Source: a virus. Taken from it: 32,057 bases of DNA. Position numbers and translations under genes: made by a program. The notes below the pieces were generated by a model. The model did no database searches. It saw only the letters and a program-made list of their open reading frames with translations, and had not been told where the DNA came from. Shown here in pieces: positions 1-31,951 of this stretch; position 1 is the first letter of the stretch, and every line of letters starts with the position of its first letter. The DNA lies in IMG/VR virus record IMGVR_UViG_3300049491_000135, positions 1-32,057 of that record. One strand, written 5' to 3'.

Positions 1-182
1 TCGTAGGTCCGTGCGTCTCGTTCGGCGTCGTACACGTCAACTCCAGAGAGCGTCTTGTAGTGGCTGTCCGCACGCGCAAACAGCACGGCTACTTCGTGCG
101 GGGGCGGGCTAACCCTTCCATCGAGCAGACACGCCCCAGCAGGCGGGTTCGGCTCGTCAAACTGTGCGGGCGTGCTGCTCAT
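1..182 (-). CDS. N-terminal part of a phage DNA-modification-like protein (cut by window edge)
   Basis: The frame is open from ATG at 182 to the window edge (60 codons). From about residue 31 it reads VAVLFARADSHYKTLSGVDV, then YDAERDAR. I associate this N-terminus with a phage family often annotated as DNA methyltransferase-like, in which a PPC motif follows; that part lies outside the window, so the function is tentative. The first 24 or so residues are encoded by the attC-like palindrome at 107-196, so the N-terminal tail may be a fusion. The start is uncertain: no clear Shine-Dalgarno precedes ATG 182, which lies 8 bases after the stop of the preceding minus-strand gene, and a GTG near residue 33 is an alternative. 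It is the last visible gene of the leftward operon at this end. Confidence 0.5.
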   Translation of the reverse strand, partial: MSSTPAQFDEPNPPAGACLLDGRVSPPPHEVAVLFARADSHYKTLSGVDVYDAERDARTY

Positions 183-196
183 GTCAAACGTTAGGC
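107..196. repeat. attC-like integron recombination site A
   Basis: The outer 7-mers are GGCTAAC (107-113) and GTTAGGC (190-196). The first differs from the RYYYAAC consensus at one position. Inside them, ATCGAGCAG pairs with CTGCTCAT with one bulged C, and the stem continues with a bulged A into ACGCCC/GGGCGT. Bulged bases in the inner box are typical of attC sites. The spacer between boxes (CCTTCC against TCAAAC) does not pair, also as in attC. The arms ctaacccttccatcgagc and catgtcaaacgttaggc recur exactly in site C (31857-31951). Compared with the published aadA-type attC layout, the site reads in the plus direction, while the genes around it lie on minus. The site is partly translated by the gene that starts at 182. 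Confidence 0.8.
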
Positions 197-409
197 CGCA
201 CGATCCCAATACACGCAGTGCTCGGCCACGTCTTTGCGCCGGTTGATCGCTCCGCCGTTCGCTCTCGGCGGGAATCCATCCCACCACATCGACGCGGGCA
301 GTTCCGGGATTTGTAGCAACCACATGCACATACCATCACCGCTCGGGTGCAGCTTGTCAGAGGCGGTTCGCTGCCAGTTGGCGTATTTGCAGTCGGTACA
401 GTTTTTCAT
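191..409 (-). CDS. Small cysteine-containing phage protein (72 aa)
   Basis: The protein starts MKNCTDCKYANW and has a second pair of cysteines (GMCMW and EHCVYW), so a small metal-binding fold is possible. Similar short proteins of unknown role occur in the early regions of betaproteobacterial phages (recognition from memory). The ATG at 409 overlaps the stop of the upstream gene in an ATGA, so the two are translationally coupled. A longer frame extends upstream but is shadow sequence of that gene. Its TAA stop lies inside the GTTAGGC core of attC-like site A, so the recombination site provides the stop codon. With the upstream gene it forms the cargo of one cassette-like unit. Confidence 0.7.
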   Translation of the reverse strand: MKNCTDCKYANWQRTASDKLHPSGDGMCMWLLQIPELPASMWWDGFPPRANGGAINRRKDVAEHCVYWDRAA

Positions 410-669
410 GGGGCGGGCCAGTTCAGCGCCAGTTGCAAGCCTTCGTCCCACTGGCGCGGAACGCAGCACGCCATGTGCATTGGTCGGGCTTCCGAAATGT
501 TGCCATCTAGTGTGCCAGCAATCGGCACGAGCACCGTTTCGCCTTCGTCGGTCGTTCCGCAAATCGGGCACGTCGAGTCAGCGGGAAACCGCGCAAAGGT
601 TCGCGGGTGCTGCCTAACTGGTCGTTGGAGCGGACCCGCTCCGGCTTGGTTACTTTGAGTCATCGTCAT
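406..669 (-). CDS. Small CPxCG-type zinc-motif phage protein whose N-terminus is translated from an attC site
   Basis: An 87-aa frame ending in an ATGA overlap with the next gene. The core from about residue 24 (TFARFPADSTCPICGTTDEG) resembles small phage proteins with a CPxCG knuckle; a later CC pair may complete a zinc site. The first 20 or so residues (MTMTQSNQAGAGPLQRPV) are translated from attC-like site B (612-714): the ATG at 669 lies in its loop and the frame runs through the stem. No good Shine-Dalgarno precedes ATG 669, and I see no better internal start. The tail may therefore be a product of cassette insertion that now supplies the start codon. Function is unknown. Confidence 0.6.
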   Translation of the reverse strand: MTMTQSNQAGAGPLQRPVRQHPRTFARFPADSTCPICGTTDEGETVLVPIAGTLDGNISEARPMHMACCVPRQWDEGLQLALNWPAP

Positions 670-714
670 CCTTTGGTGCGGGCCGGAGCGGGTCCGCTCA
701 ACTCTGCGTTAGAC
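612..714. repeat. attC-like integron recombination site B
   Basis: The ends are GCCTAAC (612-618) and GTTAGAC (708-714), both fitting the RYYYAAC/GTTRRRY consensus. The inner arms gagcggacccgctccggc (628-645) and gccggagcgggtccgctc (682-699) are an exact 18-bp inverted repeat around a 36-base loop. The stretches between end and inner arm do not pair, as expected for the central spacer of an attC. The minus-strand gene at 709-1056 takes its TAA stop from the GTTAGAC core, and the next minus-strand gene starts in the loop. In sequence it differs from sites A and C, as attC sites of unrelated cassettes do. Confidence 0.78.
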
Positions 715-1056
715 CTCAATTGCAGCAATGCACTGCGCTGCTCCAGCAGCTTGCAACTGGTGCTGCATGCGCACCCGCTCCGACGACAGCAAGCGCCCAG
801 CCGGGTCGCCGCCGTATCCGGTCATGATCGCAACGCAGGCGGCAATGCACCGCTCGCGCTCTGCTTTGCGCACGGACTGCAACTCGTCGGCCAACTCGCC
901 CACGATCAAATCACGCAGCGCCTCACGGTTCTCGCGCGGGTCGTTGCGCCGAATGTCGCTGTACTTCAGCAGGCGTTGTGGTACACCATGCTGCGCGCTC
1001 GGGTCCGGGACTAACCCATCGGTCCAGGCGACAGCCCCGGCGTTGCTTTCGTTCAT
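709..1056 (-). CDS. Conserved-type small phage protein (115 aa), unknown function
   Basis: The protein is charged and helical in its middle (RNDPRENREALRDL, then a KAERERCIAACVA segment). No known domain is recognised. The AERERCIAAC pattern followed by a short tail is common in small early proteins of betaproteobacterial phages. ATG 1056 lies five bases downstream of the stop of the Sak3-like gene, so it belongs to the same leftward operon. Its stop TAA is part of the GTTAGAC core of attC-like site B. It is either the last backbone gene before the cassette-like array or itself cassette cargo. Confidence 0.65.
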   Translation of the reverse strand: MNESNAGAVAWTDGLVPDPSAQHGVPQRLLKYSDIRRNDPRENREALRDLIVGELADELQSVRKAERERCIAACVAIMTGYGGDPAGRLLSSERVRMQHQLQAAGAAQCIAAIEV

Positions 1057-1061
1057 GCTTG

Positions 1062-1835
1062 CTACTCAGGCTTATTTGCCTTGATCGTGCTGCGCAACTT
1101 CGATTCCGTTGCTAGCAGCTTCCACACGTACTTCATCTGCTCTTGCTTATCGCCCACGTCTTCACTCCAAGTGCTTGCGTCGTACCAAACACCGATTGCA
1201 TCAAGGTCGCGGCCATCCTTGTGCATGTCAATCAGCGACATGGCAAGGTCAACGCAATAGGCTTTCGATACCTCTTCCAGCCCATCGCCAGCACCATCGG
1301 TGGGGGTTGCCTTCATGTCGTGGGGCAGTTGCATGCTTTTCGGATGCTCGGGCTCGGCATCGGTTTGCTTTTCGCGCTGCCTCCATTCTTTGTTTGCTTC
1401 AGCAACGTAGCGCGAATCATCCCAGCGGCCAGAGAAAATGTCGCCAGCAAAGCCGAGGTAGCTGGCGCACTTCACCAGCGCATCGGTGACAGACTTCTTT
1501 GGTGCATCTTCGTCAAGCATGAACTTGCCGGCAGCGGTTGTGTAGCTGGATTTTGTCTGGCCGACCTGCTCAAGCTCGCCGCGCTTGCTGTCCAGCATGT
1601 ACCAGAAGCGCACCACGGCGACGTGCAGGGTGTCTGTCTCGCTGAAACGCTCGAAGCGCTCGTTCAGGATCGTGAACCCCCAGCCGATTCCGCACGGGCC
1701 GAACTCGTCTGTCAAGCGCTCGACGATCCAATACGGCTTTGGACTGTTGCCGCTGTACTGCTTGCCGGTGATGGCCTTCACCGCCTTCGGGTCGGTTGTG
1801 AAGGCGCGCTTCCATAGTGCTTTGTTATCGCTCAA
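1062..1835 (-). CDS. Putative Rad52/Sak3-like single-strand annealing protein
   Basis: A 257-aa protein. After an N-terminal WKRAF...DPKAVKAITGK segment it has SPKPYWIVERLTDEFGP and GIGWGF, then a beta-rich part (VRFWYMLDSK). A helical KKSVTDALVKCASYLGFAGD segment and GRWDDSRYVAEANKEW follow. The combination of 'GxGW', a strand describing ligand properties, and 'KSxTDALxKxxSxLGF' resembles Sak3/DUF1071 and other Rad52-like phage annealing proteins; this is inference from pattern. The family promotes strand annealing in phage recombination and replication. I chose TTG 1835 because it overlaps the stop of the upstream gene (TTGA) and AGGA lies about 9 bases before it; a longer frame to 2012 is shadow. 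It is the largest gene of the leftward operon. Confidence 0.6.
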   Translation of the reverse strand: MSDNKALWKRAFTTDPKAVKAITGKQYSGNSPKPYWIVERLTDEFGPCGIGWGFTILNERFERFSETDTLHVAVVRFWYMLDSKRGELEQVGQTKSSYTTAAGKFMLDEDAPKKSVTDALVKCASYLGFAGDIFSGRWDDSRYVAEANKEWRQREKQTDAEPEHPKSMQLPHDMKATPTDGAGDGLEEVSKAYCVDLAMSLIDMHKDGRDLDAIGVWYDASTWSEDVGDKQEQMKYVWKLLATESKLRSTIKANKPE

Positions 1836-4628: not shown

Positions 4629-4786
4629 CTCGCACCGAATTTCACATCTTGATTGACACAGCAATGTCCCTTGTTTGCATGGGCGCACTTTCGTTTGCGG
4701 CATGGTGGGCGCCGCTTGTTGCATGCGTGCTGGCGCTGTGGAATTTCTACCAAGGCTTGGCGTTTTATCGGAGGATCGACCAATGA
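4625..4786 (+). CDS. Small membrane protein (53 aa)
   Basis: After MTRTEFHILIDTA there are two hydrophobic segments (about residues 10-27 and 28-44) separated by a short WWAP turn, so a hairpin of two membrane spans is possible. It shares ATGA overlaps with both neighbours. Small membrane proteins of unknown role are frequent in phage early operons. Confidence 0.6.
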   Translation: MTRTEFHILIDTAMSLVCMGALSFAAWWAPLVACVLALWNFYQGLAFYRRIDQ

Positions 4787-5031
4787 GAGACCCCATCACG
4801 TTTGACAGGCTCCCCGCCAAGCCTGCCAAAACCACCAAATGCGAAAAGCTTTTTCACATGCTCGGCAAGCGCTGGATGACTGCCGCTGACAGCATGGAGC
4901 TATGCGGCGTGTTGAGCCTGAGCCAGCGTGTCAGCGAGTGGAGAGCTGAAGGCGTCCAGATCATGGACAAGTGGCTTGAAGTAGACGGGTCGCGGTTCAA
5001 AATGTACCGAAGATTTCGCGGGAGGCCTTGA
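4783..5031 (+). CDS. Helix-turn-helix type protein (82 aa)
   Basis: Starts MRDPITFDRLPAKPAKTTKC. The part from about residue 26 (FHMLGKRWMTAADSMELCGV, LSLSQRVSEWRAEGVQIMD) has the order helix, helix-turn-helix, and is followed by a wing-like GSRFKMYRRFRG. This layout resembles small helix-turn-helix proteins of phages that contain the 'SQRVSEWR' recognition helix. It is the last gene before the structured segment at 5070-5185. Its target is unknown. Confidence 0.6.
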   Translation: MRDPITFDRLPAKPAKTTKCEKLFHMLGKRWMTAADSMELCGVLSLSQRVSEWRAEGVQIMDKWLEVDGSRFKMYRRFRGRP

Positions 5032-5069
5032 CAAGCTGCGGGCCATCAATCATGATTTATCAACTACTG

Positions 5070-5185
5070 CTGCCAGGCGTAGAAAACAGCATGAGGCCAC
5101 TTTCTCATGCGCTCCGTGGGGCACTTGCCCCTTCAGCCTGGCAGCACGGAACGCAGCAGAAAGTGGCCTTTCTGCGTTCTGGCCT
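5070..5185 (+). ncRNA. Strongly structured RNA element with alternative folds (candidate)
   Basis: Exact 12-bp stem AGGCCACTTTCT (5094-5105) with AGAAAGTGGCCT (5158-5169). Inside it are a 10-bp stem with one mismatch (GCGCTCCGTG 5109-5118 / CACGGAACGC 5145-5154) and the hairpin GGGC-ACTT-GCCC (5119-5130). CTGCCAGGC (5070-5078) is exactly complementary to GCCTGGCAG (5136-5144) inside this structure, which would form a pseudoknot. The 3' arm can instead fold with downstream bases as GCAGAAAG-TGGC-CTTTCTGC (5156-5175), excluding the long stem. No protein frame with phage-like features covers it. A regulatory RNA, attenuator or sRNA is likely; no Rfam family is recognised. Confidence 0.5.
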
Positions 5186-5210
5186 CCAGTCGGGCAGTGG
5201 TAAACGAGTC

Positions 5211-5327
5211 ATGCCCATGAAATCGGGGCACTGGAAGTCAGACAACCCCTTGCGAACGACCAACGCACGGGTGCAAGCGTCGATAGAGCGACTTGCGCAG
5301 GCAGAGACTGATTGTGACTACGCTTAG
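5211..5327 (+). CDS. Doubtful small protein (38 aa)
   Basis: ATG 5211 gives MPMKSGHWKSDNPLRTTNAR and ends ERLAQAETDCDYA. The helix-like second half looks protein-like, but no good ribosome site is seen and the longer frame upstream is clearly read-through of the structured RNA region. It lies just before a terminator-like hairpin. Apart from this frame and the RNA element, nothing else is supported in 5032-5443. Confidence 0.3.
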   Translation: MPMKSGHWKSDNPLRTTNARVQASIERLAQAETDCDYA

Positions 5328-5337
5328 CAGTCTTTTT
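5305..5337 (+). terminator. Possible intrinsic terminator
   Basis: AGACTG (5305-5310) pairs with CAGTCT (5328-5333), followed by TTTTTC. The stem is short (6 bp) with a 17-base loop, so the call is moderate. It would end transcripts from the early operon or from the structured RNA before the ParB-like gene. Confidence 0.4.
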
Positions 5338-5443
5338 CGATGAATCTATCCCTCATGGGCACTTGAGGTGCGTAGGGCAGAAGAACCGCGCACCCGGAGC
5401 AGTGGCATCGGTCACCCGGCGTAGCTATGGAGAAAAGACAAAA

Positions 5444-6001
5444 ATGAGTCTTGGAACAATCCTTGAAATGTGCGAGGCTGGAATCCTCAGCATCCCGCAC
5501 CTACCGCTGAATGAGCAAGTCGAAGCGTTGAACAAAACCCGCCTGATGCTCCACGAGGCCGGTCCGTTTGCTGGTGAGCCCGTGGGCCTTGTGGAGTGGG
5601 TGCCTGCTGAGGTTGTGCATGCAAACGACTACAACCCAAACAGCGTCGCACCTCCTGAAATGGAGTTGCTTCGGCTGTCGATCATGGCAGATGGCTACAC
5701 GCAGCCAATCGTCACCTACCACGAAGATGGCAGGCGCACCGTCATTGATGGCTTTCACCGCAACCGCGTCGGGAAAGAGTGCGCAGACGTTGCCGAGCGC
5801 GTCAAAGGCTACCTGCCGGTGGTCCGCATCCGCTCCGACGAATTGCGAGCGGCGATCCATGCAAACGATGTGATTGCCATCGAGCGAGAATGCCTAGACC
5901 TCGCGGCGCCTTTTTTGCGTATGGCCGAGCAGTTGCAGGACAAGAAACGATTGTTGCGCCGGGAGGCCCGCGCACTTGCAGCTTTGGGGGCGGCAGAATG
6001 A
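5444..6001 (+). CDS. ParB-like nuclease-domain protein (185 aa)
   Basis: About residues 48-110 form a ParB/Srx-type domain: VGLVEWVPAEVVHANDYNPN, then GYTQPIVTY and TVIDGFHRNRVGKE. The last element corresponds to the GEHRR-like nucleotide-binding motif of ParB and IbrB. C-terminal helices (KKRLLRREARALAAL) are basic. Phage members of this family are linked to partition-like DNA binding, transcription control or nuclease activity; which applies here cannot be told. ATG 5444 follows GGAGAAAAG; an in-frame extension to 5363 lacks a ribosome site. It overlaps the next gene by ATGA. Confidence 0.75.
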   Translation: MSLGTILEMCEAGILSIPHLPLNEQVEALNKTRLMLHEAGPFAGEPVGLVEWVPAEVVHANDYNPNSVAPPEMELLRLSIMADGYTQPIVTYHEDGRRTVIDGFHRNRVGKECADVAERVKGYLPVVRIRSDELRAAIHANDVIAIERECLDLAAPFLRMAEQLQDKKRLLRREARALAALGAAE

Positions 6002-6539: not shown

Positions 6540-6706
6540 ACCGCCGCCTTGAAGTGCTTGCCAAGCAGATCGCCGCCGAGAAAGCGAAACAGTACCAGCG
6601 CGTCCCCGACTTCCCCATTGCGCCGCCAAACGTGAGCACGCAAGTGCTGAATGGCAAAGTGAAGGCGACAACCGCTGACGGGCAGGAACTGTGGATTGAC
6701 GCATGA
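6524..6706 (+). CDS. Hypothetical small phage protein (60 aa)
   Basis: Starts MSEHLNRRLEVLAKQIAAEK, a basic helix, then a proline-rich link and a short beta-like tail (VKATTADGQELWIDA). AAGGAAGGAG 7-8 bases upstream clearly decides ATG 6524. It overlaps the end of its neighbour in another frame and the start of the next gene by ATGA. Confidence 0.65.
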   Translation: MSEHLNRRLEVLAKQIAAEKAKQYQRVPDFPIAPPNVSTQVLNGKVKATTADGQELWIDA

Positions 6707-7035
6707 GCAAGCCAATTGACCCGCAGTCATCTATACAGATGATGCTGGACACCGCTCCAAGGCTCGCAAAAGCAAAAGGTGAGCGCGTGTACTTGGAAGA
6801 GTACCGCAAGAGCCTGAAGGCAATTCTGATGAAGGCCAGCGTACAAAGCACGGCGGCCATGCAGGAGCGTGAGGCCTACGCCGCCCCTCAATACATCGAG
6901 CACCTGAAGGCCCTGCGCATCGCAGTGGAGGGGGAGGAGGCGCTACGCTGGCGGATGGTGGCGATGCAGGCCAGTGTGGAAGTCTGGAGGAGCCAAGAGG
7001 CTAGCAATAGAGCAATGGATCGAGCAACGCAATGA
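6703..7035 (+). CDS. Conserved helical phage protein (110 aa)
   Basis: All-helical: SIQMMLDTAPRLAKAKGERV, EEYRKSLKAILMKAS, then AAPQYIEHLKALRIAVEGEE and LRWRMVAMQASVEVWRSQEA. This pattern (short lysine-rich helix, 'AxPxYxxHLxxL', 'RWxxVAAxAxxEVWRSxEAS') is widespread in phages of Gram-negative hosts as a protein of unknown function in the replication/recombination region. ATGA overlaps on both sides. Confidence 0.7.
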   Translation: MSKPIDPQSSIQMMLDTAPRLAKAKGERVYLEEYRKSLKAILMKASVQSTAAMQEREAYAAPQYIEHLKALRIAVEGEEALRWRMVAMQASVEVWRSQEASNRAMDRATQ

Positions 7036-7223
7036 TCGAAGATAACCATAGTTTCAGTTGCTATTGTGCCCGCCCCGAGTGCGTTCGTGAGCGCGAGCAA
7101 CTAGCTACGCTTCGCGCGGCACTTGAACTGATTGCAACTCCGATTCGCCCGGATGGGACATGGAATCGAGACAGGGCGTCCTGTCAAACATTGGCCCTAA
7201 TCGCACTTGGCTTGCAAGAATGA
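7032..7223 (+). CDS. Small cysteine-containing protein (63 aa)
   Basis: MIEDNHSFSCYCARPECVRE then a helix with REQLATLRAALELIA. The N-terminal C-x-C-x4-C cluster could bind a metal. It directly precedes ninG with an ATGA overlap. Function unknown. Confidence 0.6.
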   Translation: MIEDNHSFSCYCARPECVREREQLATLRAALELIATPIRPDGTWNRDRASCQTLALIALGLQE

Positions 7224-7774
7224 AGCAATGCACAATCTGTGCCAAGGACTTTGAGCCAAAGTACAGCAGCATGCAGGTAGTGTGTAGCCGAATATGCGCT
7301 CAGCGCGTGCCAGTGCTTGCCAGAAAGAAAGAGCGGGCAGAAACCAAAGCCAAGCGCGAAGCACAAAAGACGCTTCCAGACCTCCGCAAAGAGGCTCAGA
7401 AAGCGTTTAACGATTTCATCCGAGCCAGGGATGCCGACAAGCCGTGCATCTGCTGCGGCCGTTGGCCTAGCGGGGCTGAGGCGCTTACGGGCGGGTCATG
7501 GGATGCAGGGCACTTCAGGGGCAGAGGCGCAAACCTAGAGCTATCGTTTGACGAAGACAATTGCCACAAACAACTGAAAGGCTGCAATCGGGGAGATTGG
7601 GACCGCGTGGCTTACGAGGCAGAGTTGGTCCGGCGCATTGGCCCCGAGCGGGTGGCAATCCTCAAAGGACCACATCCAATGCTCAAGCTAACCCGAGACG
7701 ATTTGCGGGCCATCCGCACCAAATATCGGCTTAAAGTGGCACAAAGCAAGCGAGAGCACGATTCCGCTTCCTAA
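7220..7774 (+). CDS. ninG: NinG/Rap-type recombination protein
   Basis: 184 aa. N-terminal Cys4 zinc ribbon (C4, C7, C22, C26). A long lysine/arginine-rich helix with TLPDLRKEAQKAFNDFIRAR (51-70) follows, then CICCGRW (76-82), GGSWDAGHFRGRGANLELSF (91-110) and CHKQLKGCN (115-123). This is the order and spacing of lambda NinG (Rap), an HNH-like protein acting on Holliday junctions and recombination intermediates. The length is near the family's. ATG 7220 overlaps the upstream stop. In lambdoid phages ninG lies just upstream of the late regulator Q, as it does here. Confidence 0.88.
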   Translation: MKQCTICAKDFEPKYSSMQVVCSRICAQRVPVLARKKERAETKAKREAQKTLPDLRKEAQKAFNDFIRARDADKPCICCGRWPSGAEALTGGSWDAGHFRGRGANLELSFDEDNCHKQLKGCNRGDWDRVAYEAELVRRIGPERVAILKGPHPMLKLTRDDLRAIRTKYRLKVAQSKREHDSAS

Positions 7775-30796: not shown

Positions 30797-30972
30797 CGTG
30801 CAAGCACTGTGCCCACTGCCAACGCCTTGAGATTGCCAAGAAAGCGCGGGCGCTGAAGATGAAGCTGATCTCAGCGCCAGGCCAGATCAACAAGCCGAAC
30901 CCGGCTAAGGCGCTGAAGGCTCGGCTGATTGCTGAGAATCGAGCAAAGAGCACCAGAGGCAAGAAGCCATGA
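30793..30972 (+). CDS. Small basic Cys-rich protein (59 aa)
   Basis: GTG 30793 overlaps the previous stop. The N-terminus TCKHCAHCQRLEIAKKAR has C-x2-C-x2-C spacing, and the rest is lysine/alanine-rich (NPAKALKARLIAENRAKS). It may bind nucleic acid or metal; no family is recognised. ATGA overlap with the Rz-like gene. Confidence 0.6.
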   Translation: MTCKHCAHCQRLEIAKKARALKMKLISAPGQINKPNPAKALKARLIAENRAKSTRGKKP

Positions 30973-31475
30973 CGCCGATTTACATGAAGGCGGCAATCGT
31001 CCTGACGCTGCTATCAGCTATCGGAGTCCAGACGCTGCGCCTAGACCACGCAAAGCTCGACCTTGCCGAAGTGCAAAAAGCGTGGAGCGCAGACCGCCAG
31101 CAGGCAGCGGAGGCGAGCCAGAAGGCCGAAGCAGCCGCGCGAGCAACCGAACAGCTTTGGATCAAGCAGCAAAAGGAACGCGACGATGCAAACGAACTCA
31201 GGTTACAGAGCATCCGTGCTGATGCTGTCATTGCTGGCGCTGCTGCTGACCGCCTGCGCCAGCGTCTCGCCGCCATTGCCTCCGTCCCCAGTCAAGCCCC
31301 CGCAGATTCCCACGCTGTCGCAAGCGGCGAGGCAACCACCGATTACACCCCTGTGCTTGCCAACATGCTCACGCAGTGTGGGCAACATCTTCGAGCAATG
31401 GCTCAGATTGCTGACACCAGCCGAGCCGCAGGAAACGCCTGCGTCGCCCAGTACGAAGGGCTGACTGCGCCATAG
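30969..31475 (+). CDS. Rz-like i-spanin
   Basis: 168 aa. One N-terminal membrane span (about 6-21, MKAAIVLTLLSAIGVQ) with the rest periplasmic. A long coiled coil rich in Ala/Gln/Arg (KAWSADRQQAAEASQKAEAA and following) continues to about 100, then a C-terminal part with two cysteines (TQCGQHL, GNACVAQY). This is the Rz-type (DUF2514-like) i-spanin layout. The Rz1-like gene is embedded in another frame inside it, the classic spanin arrangement. Together they fuse inner and outer membrane at lysis. Confidence 0.85.
   Translation: MTPIYMKAAIVLTLLSAIGVQTLRLDHAKLDLAEVQKAWSADRQQAAEASQKAEAAARATEQLWIKQQKERDDANELRLQSIRADAVIAGAAADRLRQRLAAIASVPSQAPADSHAVASGEATTDYTPVLANMLTQCGQHLRAMAQIADTSRAAGNACVAQYEGLTAP
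31186..31464 (+). CDS. Rz1-like o-spanin lipoprotein, nested in Rz
   Basis: 92 aa in a different frame, entirely within the Rz-like gene. MQTNSGYRASVLMLSLLALL then LTAC: lipoprotein signal with the lipidated Cys at position 24. Right after it is the proline-rich PPLPPSPVKPPQIPTL, typical of Rz1. AAAAGGAACG before ATG 31186 serves as ribosome site. Longer than lambda Rz1. The protein sits in the outer membrane and pairs with the Rz-like coiled coil. Confidence 0.85.
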   Translation: MQTNSGYRASVLMLSLLALLLTACASVSPPLPPSPVKPPQIPTLSQAARQPPITPLCLPTCSRSVGNIFEQWLRLLTPAEPQETPASPSTKG

Positions 31476-31544: not shown

Positions 31545-31568
31545 GGGGCCTATATCACGTTAGGCCCC
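31545..31568. terminator. Hairpin at the convergent gene end, containing a GTTAGGC core (possible cassette insertion point)
   Basis: GGGGCCTA (31545-31552) and TAGGCCCC (31561-31568) pair exactly around TATCACGT. It separates the late operon from the minus-strand gene whose TAA stop lies in it and may end transcription from either side, though it lacks a U-run. It contains GTTAGGC (31559-31565) preceded by GGCCTATATCAC, which resembles the right half of an attC; the left half is not found. Confidence 0.45.
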
Positions 31569-31832
31569 ATGCAATTTACGCCCCACCGCTTTCAGCGTGC
31601 TCACCGGCGGCAGTGCCAGCACGGTCTTGGGCTTCGTGTCGTGGCCGCCTTCGGCGCCGCTGTCCAGCGTCCATTCCAGCACCTCGCATTCATACTTCCC
31701 GCCGCGATAGTCGCTCTCGGTCTTTGCGGACTTCAGCGCGGCGTGCTTCTTTGAGTACACGCCCACGCTGTAGCTGTGGCATTCACGGTCGCCCCATCGA
31801 TAGGCATGCACTGTGTAAACGGTTGGCTTCAT
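31560..31832 (-). CDS. Small phage-type protein as cassette cargo (90 aa)
   Basis: MKPTVYTVHAYRWGDRECHS, then YSVGVYSKKHAALKSAKTES and YRGGKYECEVLEW. The type is familiar from phage genomes as an early protein of unknown function. AGGAGGAAAG before ATG 31832 gives an excellent ribosome site; an in-frame upstream start at 31871 would begin inside attC-like site C and is not needed. The stop TAA lies within a GTTAGGC core at 31559-31565. The gene therefore fills the space between that core and site C, as a cassette gene does. Confidence 0.7.
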   Translation of the reverse strand: MKPTVYTVHAYRWGDRECHSYSVGVYSKKHAALKSAKTESDYRGGKYECEVLEWTLDSGAEGGHDTKPKTVLALPPVSTLKAVGRKLHGA

Positions 31833-31856: not shown

Positions 31857-31951
31857 GCCTAACCCTTCCATCGAGCCGAAAACTCCGGCTTACGGGTGGT
31901 TCAAATCAAAGTCTGCGCGGCCGGGTTTTCGGCGCATGTCAAACGTTAGGC
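31857..31951. repeat. attC-like integron recombination site C
   Basis: GCCTAAC (31857-31863) and GTTAGGC (31945-31951) are perfect mates. The inner arms ATCGAGCCGAAAACTCCGGC (31871 region) and GCCGGGTTTTCGGCGCAT pair with a few bulges, as attC inner boxes do; the spacer CCTTCC/TCAAAC is unpaired. The outer arms are identical to site A over 17-18 bases on each side, while the centres differ. This is the pattern of attC sites of the same lineage in one array. Confidence 0.8.

Follow-up and report, generated by a model that had tools for sequence, protein, structure and literature searches.

Integron attC sites and reversed gene polarity at the distal end of a phage early operon

Whether small genes of a phage can be carried as integron cassettes within the phage genome itself is the question raised by three palindromes that lie among small genes at the end of a phage early operon. 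The window (the whole stretch of DNA analysed, which is an entire virus record of 32,057 bases) encodes a terminase of podovirus type, a portal, a major head protein and a spanin. A preliminary description, made from sequence alone, had read the palindromes as attC sites without an integrase, a CALIN-like cluster that could swap accessory early genes by means of a host integron integrase.

The attC sites and the extent of the array

The palindromes had been reported at 107-196, 612-714 and 31857-31951, with RYYYAAC/GTTRRRY-type ends and, in two of them, identical outer arms around different centres. All three are present at these positions (Table 1). Their R'' and R' cores are complementary and follow the RYYYAAC...GTTRRRY pattern, with a single mismatch to RYYYAAC in the R'' core of site 1 (GGCTAAC). 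The outer arms of sites 1 and 3 are near-identical and their centres different, and site 2 has different arms. The orientation test and the model alignments revealed the other structural features expected of attC, namely L''/L' inner arms with one or more extrahelical bases on the L'' side, unpaired spacers and a terminal loop. The large loop of site 2 contains AAAGGATGACG-ATG, which is the start of the next gene on the minus strand, and the folded bottom strand of site 1 is the coding strand of the array genes.

A HattCI-like scanner, which combines R''/R' cores with complementary inner arms, recovered the three palindromes and nothing else scoring ≥19, versus 0.02 sites of that score per genome in dinucleotide shuffles. 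A covariance model (R1) was trained on bacterial loci gathered by the arm TAACCCTTCCATCGAG, from which 34 diverse attC-like sites were drawn and oriented by the extrahelical base, not by genes; several of the training loci (L024, L112 and L041) are typical arrays. When bacterial loci found via their integron integrase were used as a control, 25 of 25 model sites lay 5' of intI and pointed away from it, which is the expectation for real attC sites. On the window, R1 gave exactly three matches at E≤1, all in standard orientation on the plus strand. The scores of sites 1 and 3 are raised because their arm motif is shared with the motif used to select the bacterial loci; site 2 lacks this motif, yet reaches 38.7 bits. 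The three palindromes are genuine attC sites, with recombination by IntI inferred in the absence of an assay. Sub-threshold scores for all three sites, which would have refuted the earlier reading, did not occur.

Sites 1 and 2 are 415 bp apart, and the window meets the CALIN criterion (at least two attC sites close together with no integron integrase nearby). The CALIN-like description is fair for this contig because a TIGR02249 search of the window found no integron integrase, an absence that remains provisional because the contig breaks inside the array. The criterion for a complete integron (intI, attI and attC together) is not met in the window and is met in the phage arrays of G029 and L390-L394 discussed below. 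An Rfam scan of the window returned no family matches. A circular contig with a gene running across its ends was excluded: a terminal repeat is absent, and the frame obtained by joining the ends terminates at once. Elsewhere, at 5094-5169, the window contains a strong inverted repeat with arms of 25 nt that are 88% complementary and 26 nt apart, which is not attC-like.

The extent of the array was judged from the syntenic relative G007, whose gene near the lysis genes and early gene are 83% and 58% identical, respectively, to those of the window, in matching order. From its lysis genes to RecT, G007 carries 12 attC sites on a single strand; the window counterpart of this stretch comprises the end of the contig from ~31,480 onward together with positions 1-1,056. 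Because both contig ends fall inside the array, the array is incomplete with an unknown part missing, and the segment linking attC3 to attC1 is absent from the contig. For the same reason, only 196-612 bears out the earlier statement that small minus-strand phage genes lie between consecutive sites. The preliminary description overlooked this truncation, as well as the inverted polarity and the relatives' own IntI described below.

The gene at 1062-1835 is an anchor shared with related array-carrying phages. Homology of the gene at 3-182 starts after an attC-encoded N-terminus, with phage tblastn matches from residue 29-30 onward. The gene at 31560-31832 is 74% identical at the amino acid level to a gene of the related phage G018 that has no adjoining attC, and the DNA homology begins at the Shine-Dalgarno (SD)/ribosome-binding site, 13 bp past attC3. 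Likewise, a G014 cassette gene is 75% identical to a gene of the attC-free phage G016, and a DHH phosphoesterase is found behind attC in both G009 and L230 (56%). The genes carried in the phage arrays are those of phages, and homologues of them occur in phages without attC.

Table 1. Positions of attC sites and array genes in the window, and of an integron integrase gene in a related contig
Feature	Position	Strand	Evidence and remarks
attC site 1	107..196	+	R'' GGCTAAC, R' GTTAGGC; 60.3 bits, E=2.6e-12 (bacterial attC covariance model); scanner score 20.0
attC site 2	612..714	+	R'' GCCTAAC, R' GTTAGAC; 38.7 bits, E=2.8e-7; scanner score 25.7; perfect 18-nt arms
attC site 3	31857..31951	+	59.4 bits, E=4.2e-12; scanner score 21.0
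Cassette gene behind attC1	3..182	-	phrog_12600 family, 1e-8 over residues 29-60; runs off contig start
Cassette gene	191..409	-	ORF; stop TAA within attC1 R' core; ATG overlaps stop of preceding gene
Cassette gene	406..669	-	ORF; ATG in attC2 loop behind AAAGGATGACG; weak DUF5346 match, Pfam E=4e-4, below cut-off
Early gene upstream of array	709..1056	-	ORF; stop TAA in attC2 R' core (GTCTAA^C)
Early recombination protein, PHROG 'exonuclease' family	1062..1835	-	phrog_7838, 1.9e-47
Rz-like spanin	30969..31475	+	phrog_312, 1.5e-24; convergent array border, order as in G007
Cassette gene behind attC3, 90 aa	31560..31832	-	own SD AGGAGG shortly past attC3
3' end of gene running off contig end	31959..32057	-	sequence; stops just before attC3
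Integron integrase gene	L388 (G029) 6645-7661		

Reversed gene polarity and spread among phages

Every array gene in the window is antisense to the standard orientation of attC, and the window thus does not meet the criterion for bacterial-type cassettes, in which the gene follows the attC sense direction. With the same model and gene caller applied to both groups, bacterial sites with both neighbours called were sense in 44 cases and antisense in 2, whereas phage sites in the chosen records had both neighbours antisense in 53 cases and both sense in none. The polarity was repeated in a RecT-based sample (31 antisense, 0 sense), giving 84 antisense versus 0 sense for all phage sites with both neighbours on one strand. 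Counted per gene, the sense/antisense numbers are 155/27 in bacteria and 9/195 in phages, and sites within one record are not independent. Most of the apparent sense-polarity cases obtained by simple ORF picking proved to be antisense by a codon-based caller combined with the model strand call.

The junctions between genes and sites are regular. The stop codon of the upstream gene is a TAA within the attC core in 22 cases, at an identical offset, and the next gene usually begins 18-39 nt after attC; in 12 of 49 cases it begins inside attC. At L002 653-754, at 612-714 of the window and at similar sites, the SD and the start codon are located within the terminal loop of attC, so that translation of an attC arm yields an N-terminal tail, of which ...PAKV..MEGLG in L002 is an example. 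A single attC with bacterial (sense) polarity was observed at L004 577-648, close to the beginning of a viral record derived from an isolate, and could possibly belong to a flanking host integron. No report of reversed polarity in phage integrons was found in the literature searched, from which subscription papers and preprints were excluded.

The sites are not confined to the window. Of 19 chosen viral records, 17 gave R1 matches, the largest number of sites in one record being 12, and about 30 related viral records carry attC sites in total. Relatives of the window's early recombination gene include carriers of sites (G009, with nine matches, G017, G018, G008 and L011) as well as G016, which gave no model matches. 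When relatives of the G007 RecT were sampled without any selection for the attC motif, 11 of 79 loci matched at E≤0.01. Nearly all relatives of the terminase lack sites, the sole R1 match among the terminase loci searched being L157, thus indicating a patchy distribution and a low false-positive rate. A search for DnaB relatives of G010 recovered only the G010 contig itself, and attC3 had no blastn match among 50,697 isolate phage records. The arm family CCTAACCCTTCCATCGAG is also present in bacterial integron arrays, largely of Burkholderiales.

Conservation of the fold was assessed in 81 phage attC sites, in which 91.9% of cells are paired and 311 double changes occur, versus 97 in shuffled data. 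The covariation score of 0.485 (0.116 shuffled) was reached by none of 500 shuffles, and slid controls drop to 0.035-0.079. This alignment is biased toward structure because it was fitted to the model. Phage attC sites retain their structure through compensatory change.

Turnover of units and integron integrases in related phages

Comparison of related phages revealed that units are gained or lost at or near the attC core, and the outcome that would have counted against the earlier reading, palindromes carried as ordinary conserved coding sequence, did not occur. L360 and L361, which derive from two metagenomes, have flanks that are 100% (390 bp) and 99.85% (2689 bp) identical and differ in the cassette block between them, which is 287 bp with one cassette in one and 1,073 bp with three in the other. 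The left identity stops 2-3 nt past the TAA^C cut; the right identity resumes 12 nt before the core cut, not at the cut. A gene unit starting at the attC core is likewise present in L011 and absent in L012 and L014, or vice versa. Between L011 and L012, 571 bp take the place of 18 bp and the flanks show small differences; as this is no clean insertion, the comparison is used as supporting evidence only. Homologous recombination may have contributed to both comparisons because the right breakpoint lies off the core in the former and the flanks differ in the latter. Near-identical phages from different metagenomes do differ by whole cassettes, with breakpoints at the attC core or within 12 nt of it, and, among the records open to search, no near-identical relative showing gain or loss of the window's own three sites was found.

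An integron integrase is encoded by some of the related phages. G029, the contig of L230, carries a complete gene that scores 465.7 bits with TIGR02249 (cut-off 265), has IntI4 as its best PDB match (1.4e-91) and lies directly before a RusA gene; the contig is that of a phage, with a terminase (1e-171), a primase and a repressor. Outside G029 and its relatives, no integron integrase over the cut-off was found in the other array records searched. Identical IntI is present on five contigs from five metagenomes, and two of these, L390 and L393, are 99.9-100% identical on either side of an array that measures 2,752 bp in one and 358 bp in the other. The attI junctions read GGCCAA^CTTAAATTC in L390 and L391, GCTTAA^CTTAAATTC in L392 and L393 and GTCTAA^CTTAAATTC in L394. 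Three different cassettes are thus joined to one attI at AA^C, and as they share little beyond the core, site-specific rather than homologous joining is indicated. That IntI produced these junctions is inferred.

In the phage integrons attI lies on the 5' side of intI and the attC sites point away, with all cassette genes reading toward intI. L395, which has tail genes of another phage type, shows the same attI start, CTTAAATTCG / GGCTAACTTAAATTCGGCGACA, before its IntI. Taken together, L388 and L390-L396 place integron integrase genes, along with a conserved attI, on contigs from at least two types of phage. Integron integrases are present in 105 of 300 sampled genomes of the order Burkholderiales, and the G029 IntI is at most ~65% identical over its full length to these. 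Three phage IntIs group together with support of 93/98, in a tree that sampled only the best-matching bacterial relatives. In KX853513.1 (L400, Virus Rctr41k), a gene annotated as xerD at 4680-5678 is 45% identical to the phage IntI, and the R1 model found no attC beside it.

Proposed explanation, alternatives and known systems

We consider it very likely (roughly 0.85) that the window palindromes are integron attC sites marking the two cut ends of an exchangeable cassette array in the distal early operon; exchange in the window is inferred, without a recombination assay. What is shown is the identity of the sites as attC, the polarity and, for relatives, both the phage-encoded IntI with attI junctions and the unit-wise differences located at the core or close to it. 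A mechanism is proposed in which each unit would consist of attC, a ribosome-binding site (or a start codon in the attC loop), a small phage gene and a stop codon, the last often within the next attC core (RYYTAA^C). In phages the coding strand is the one on which attC folds; an integron integrase would recognise this folded strand and cut at the core, so that whole units of attC plus gene could be gained, lost or swapped and the operon would remain intact and unidirectional. In relatives, the phage has an intI of its own, which is preceded by attI and lies downstream of the array within its operon, and new cassettes are predicted to enter at this end.

As the window contains no integrase, exchange there would need one in trans, putatively from the host or a co-resident phage. 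The preliminary proposal that a host integron integrase swaps accessory early genes remains an inference for the window, and the host enzyme is not the sole candidate because some relatives carry their own IntI. Hints on the source are that integrases are common in the Burkholderiales order sampled and that the attC arm type of the window is largely found in Burkholderiales; the host is undetermined. That the window array is still active, the source of its IntI, and transcription from an upstream early promoter are likewise inferred. Genes beside attC in related phages include a Lar-type restriction-alleviation protein (L298 12725-13210) and a DNA methyltransferase (L292 4128-4823), and phages may therefore trade counter-defence genes by cassettes.

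A bolder reading, towards which the balance tips only slightly, is that phages own an integron lineage, with a distinct IntI clade, a conserved attI in the early operon, cassettes of opposite polarity, phages lacking intI that share the pool in trans, and many attC sites doubling as translation-start leaders. Insertion preserves attC polarity, so under this reading an operon of this kind would express phage-type cassettes alone, and the reversed polarity could therefore separate the phage cassette pool from the bacterial one.

Several alternatives were considered. The palindromes could be purely RNA elements, that is, hairpins in the early transcript that keep genes apart and influence translation initiation, without any role in recombination. 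The foldable strand is indeed the mRNA sequence in phages, and the 22 core stops and the downstream genes that start inside attC (12 of 49), for some of which the loop contains both SD and start codon, would fit this. Such hairpins, however, leave the unit-wise replacement at the core and the presence of phage IntI and attI in the same operon unexplained, and a model trained on bacterial attC gives high scores with strand discrimination; we regard this alternative as unlikely. An improbable explanation to a similar degree is that the sites are short homology blocks at whose repeated arms phage single-strand annealing proteins recombine without an integrase. The arrays do adjoin recombination genes of the RecT type or the exonuclease family; in L360/L361 the 12 nt preceding the cut are shared at the right breakpoint, and slight flank differences separate L011 from L012. 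Against this, arms within one phage differ widely and their pairing is preserved by compensatory change, and the three cassettes joined to attI lack extended homology beyond the core.

Less probable still is a passively captured, decaying piece of a bacterial integron (a CALIN relic), which would account for the occurrence of the arm family CCTAACCCTTCCATCGAG in bacterial integron arrays, largely of Burkholderiales, and has precedent in the captured integrons of temperate phages described by Qi et al. 2023 (PMC9892861). Across the array records, however, genes face the other way from those in bacterial cassettes, and the cassette genes are of phage origin, with homologues in phages that lack attC; the sites are well conserved, and array content turns over among near-identical phages. 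Chance palindromes in coding sequence could explain why parts of the sites read as coding (the attC-encoded N-termini), but are practically ruled out by the 0.02 sites per shuffled genome versus three observed, E-values of 1e-7 to 1e-12 and the strong covariation across 81 phage sites.

If the integron reading is correct, a site-specific cassette system would account for part of the modular exchange among phage early genes, for which homologous or illegitimate recombination is usually held responsible. The arrays also show that gene polarity in integrons can be reversed, which bears on the separation of cassette pools and on the origin of attC sites and cassettes.

Phage attC sites and CALINs, and their recombination by IntI1, are already known. 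Qi et al. 2023 (PMC9892861) described 17 phage CALINs, including those of Tetrasphaera phage TJE1, Polaribacter phage P12002L and Pseudoalteromonas phage PH101, and IntI1 recombined five of six phage sites tested. The present arrays resemble these in being attC clusters without an integrase in phage genomes. The TJE1 and PH101 arrays are described as having the typical bacterial layout (PMC9892861), whereas the present arrays are reversed; with R1, TJE1 gave only one match, of 13.8 bits and sense polarity, and P12002L none. The present arrays further differ from those CALINs in comprising phage early genes near recombination genes and in having relatives with their own IntI. An integrase on the phage genome is also found in the complete integrons captured by temperate phages (Vibrio phages p16/p42, an E. 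coli P1 isolate and Shewanella M16-3; PMC9892861), but these are bacterial integrons carried by phages, with IntIs 43-58% identical to the phage IntI reported here.

The reverse integron of Treponema denticola (PMC4909258, PMC7691350) has an integrase that is turned round, with the first cassette downstream of intI, and a gene stop codon in R'', which corresponds to sense polarity. The phage integrons do not meet the criterion for this type (an integrase turned relative to the array): their intI is placed with respect to attI and attC as in ordinary integrons, and it is the genes inside the cassettes that are reversed. The chromosomal integrons of Burkholderiales share the attC arm family, and their best IntIs are 60-65% identical to the phage IntI. 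In these integrons, as in the phages, attC lies on the 5' side of intI and points away; the bacterial cassette genes follow the sense direction of attC and run away from intI, whereas the phage cassette genes read toward it.
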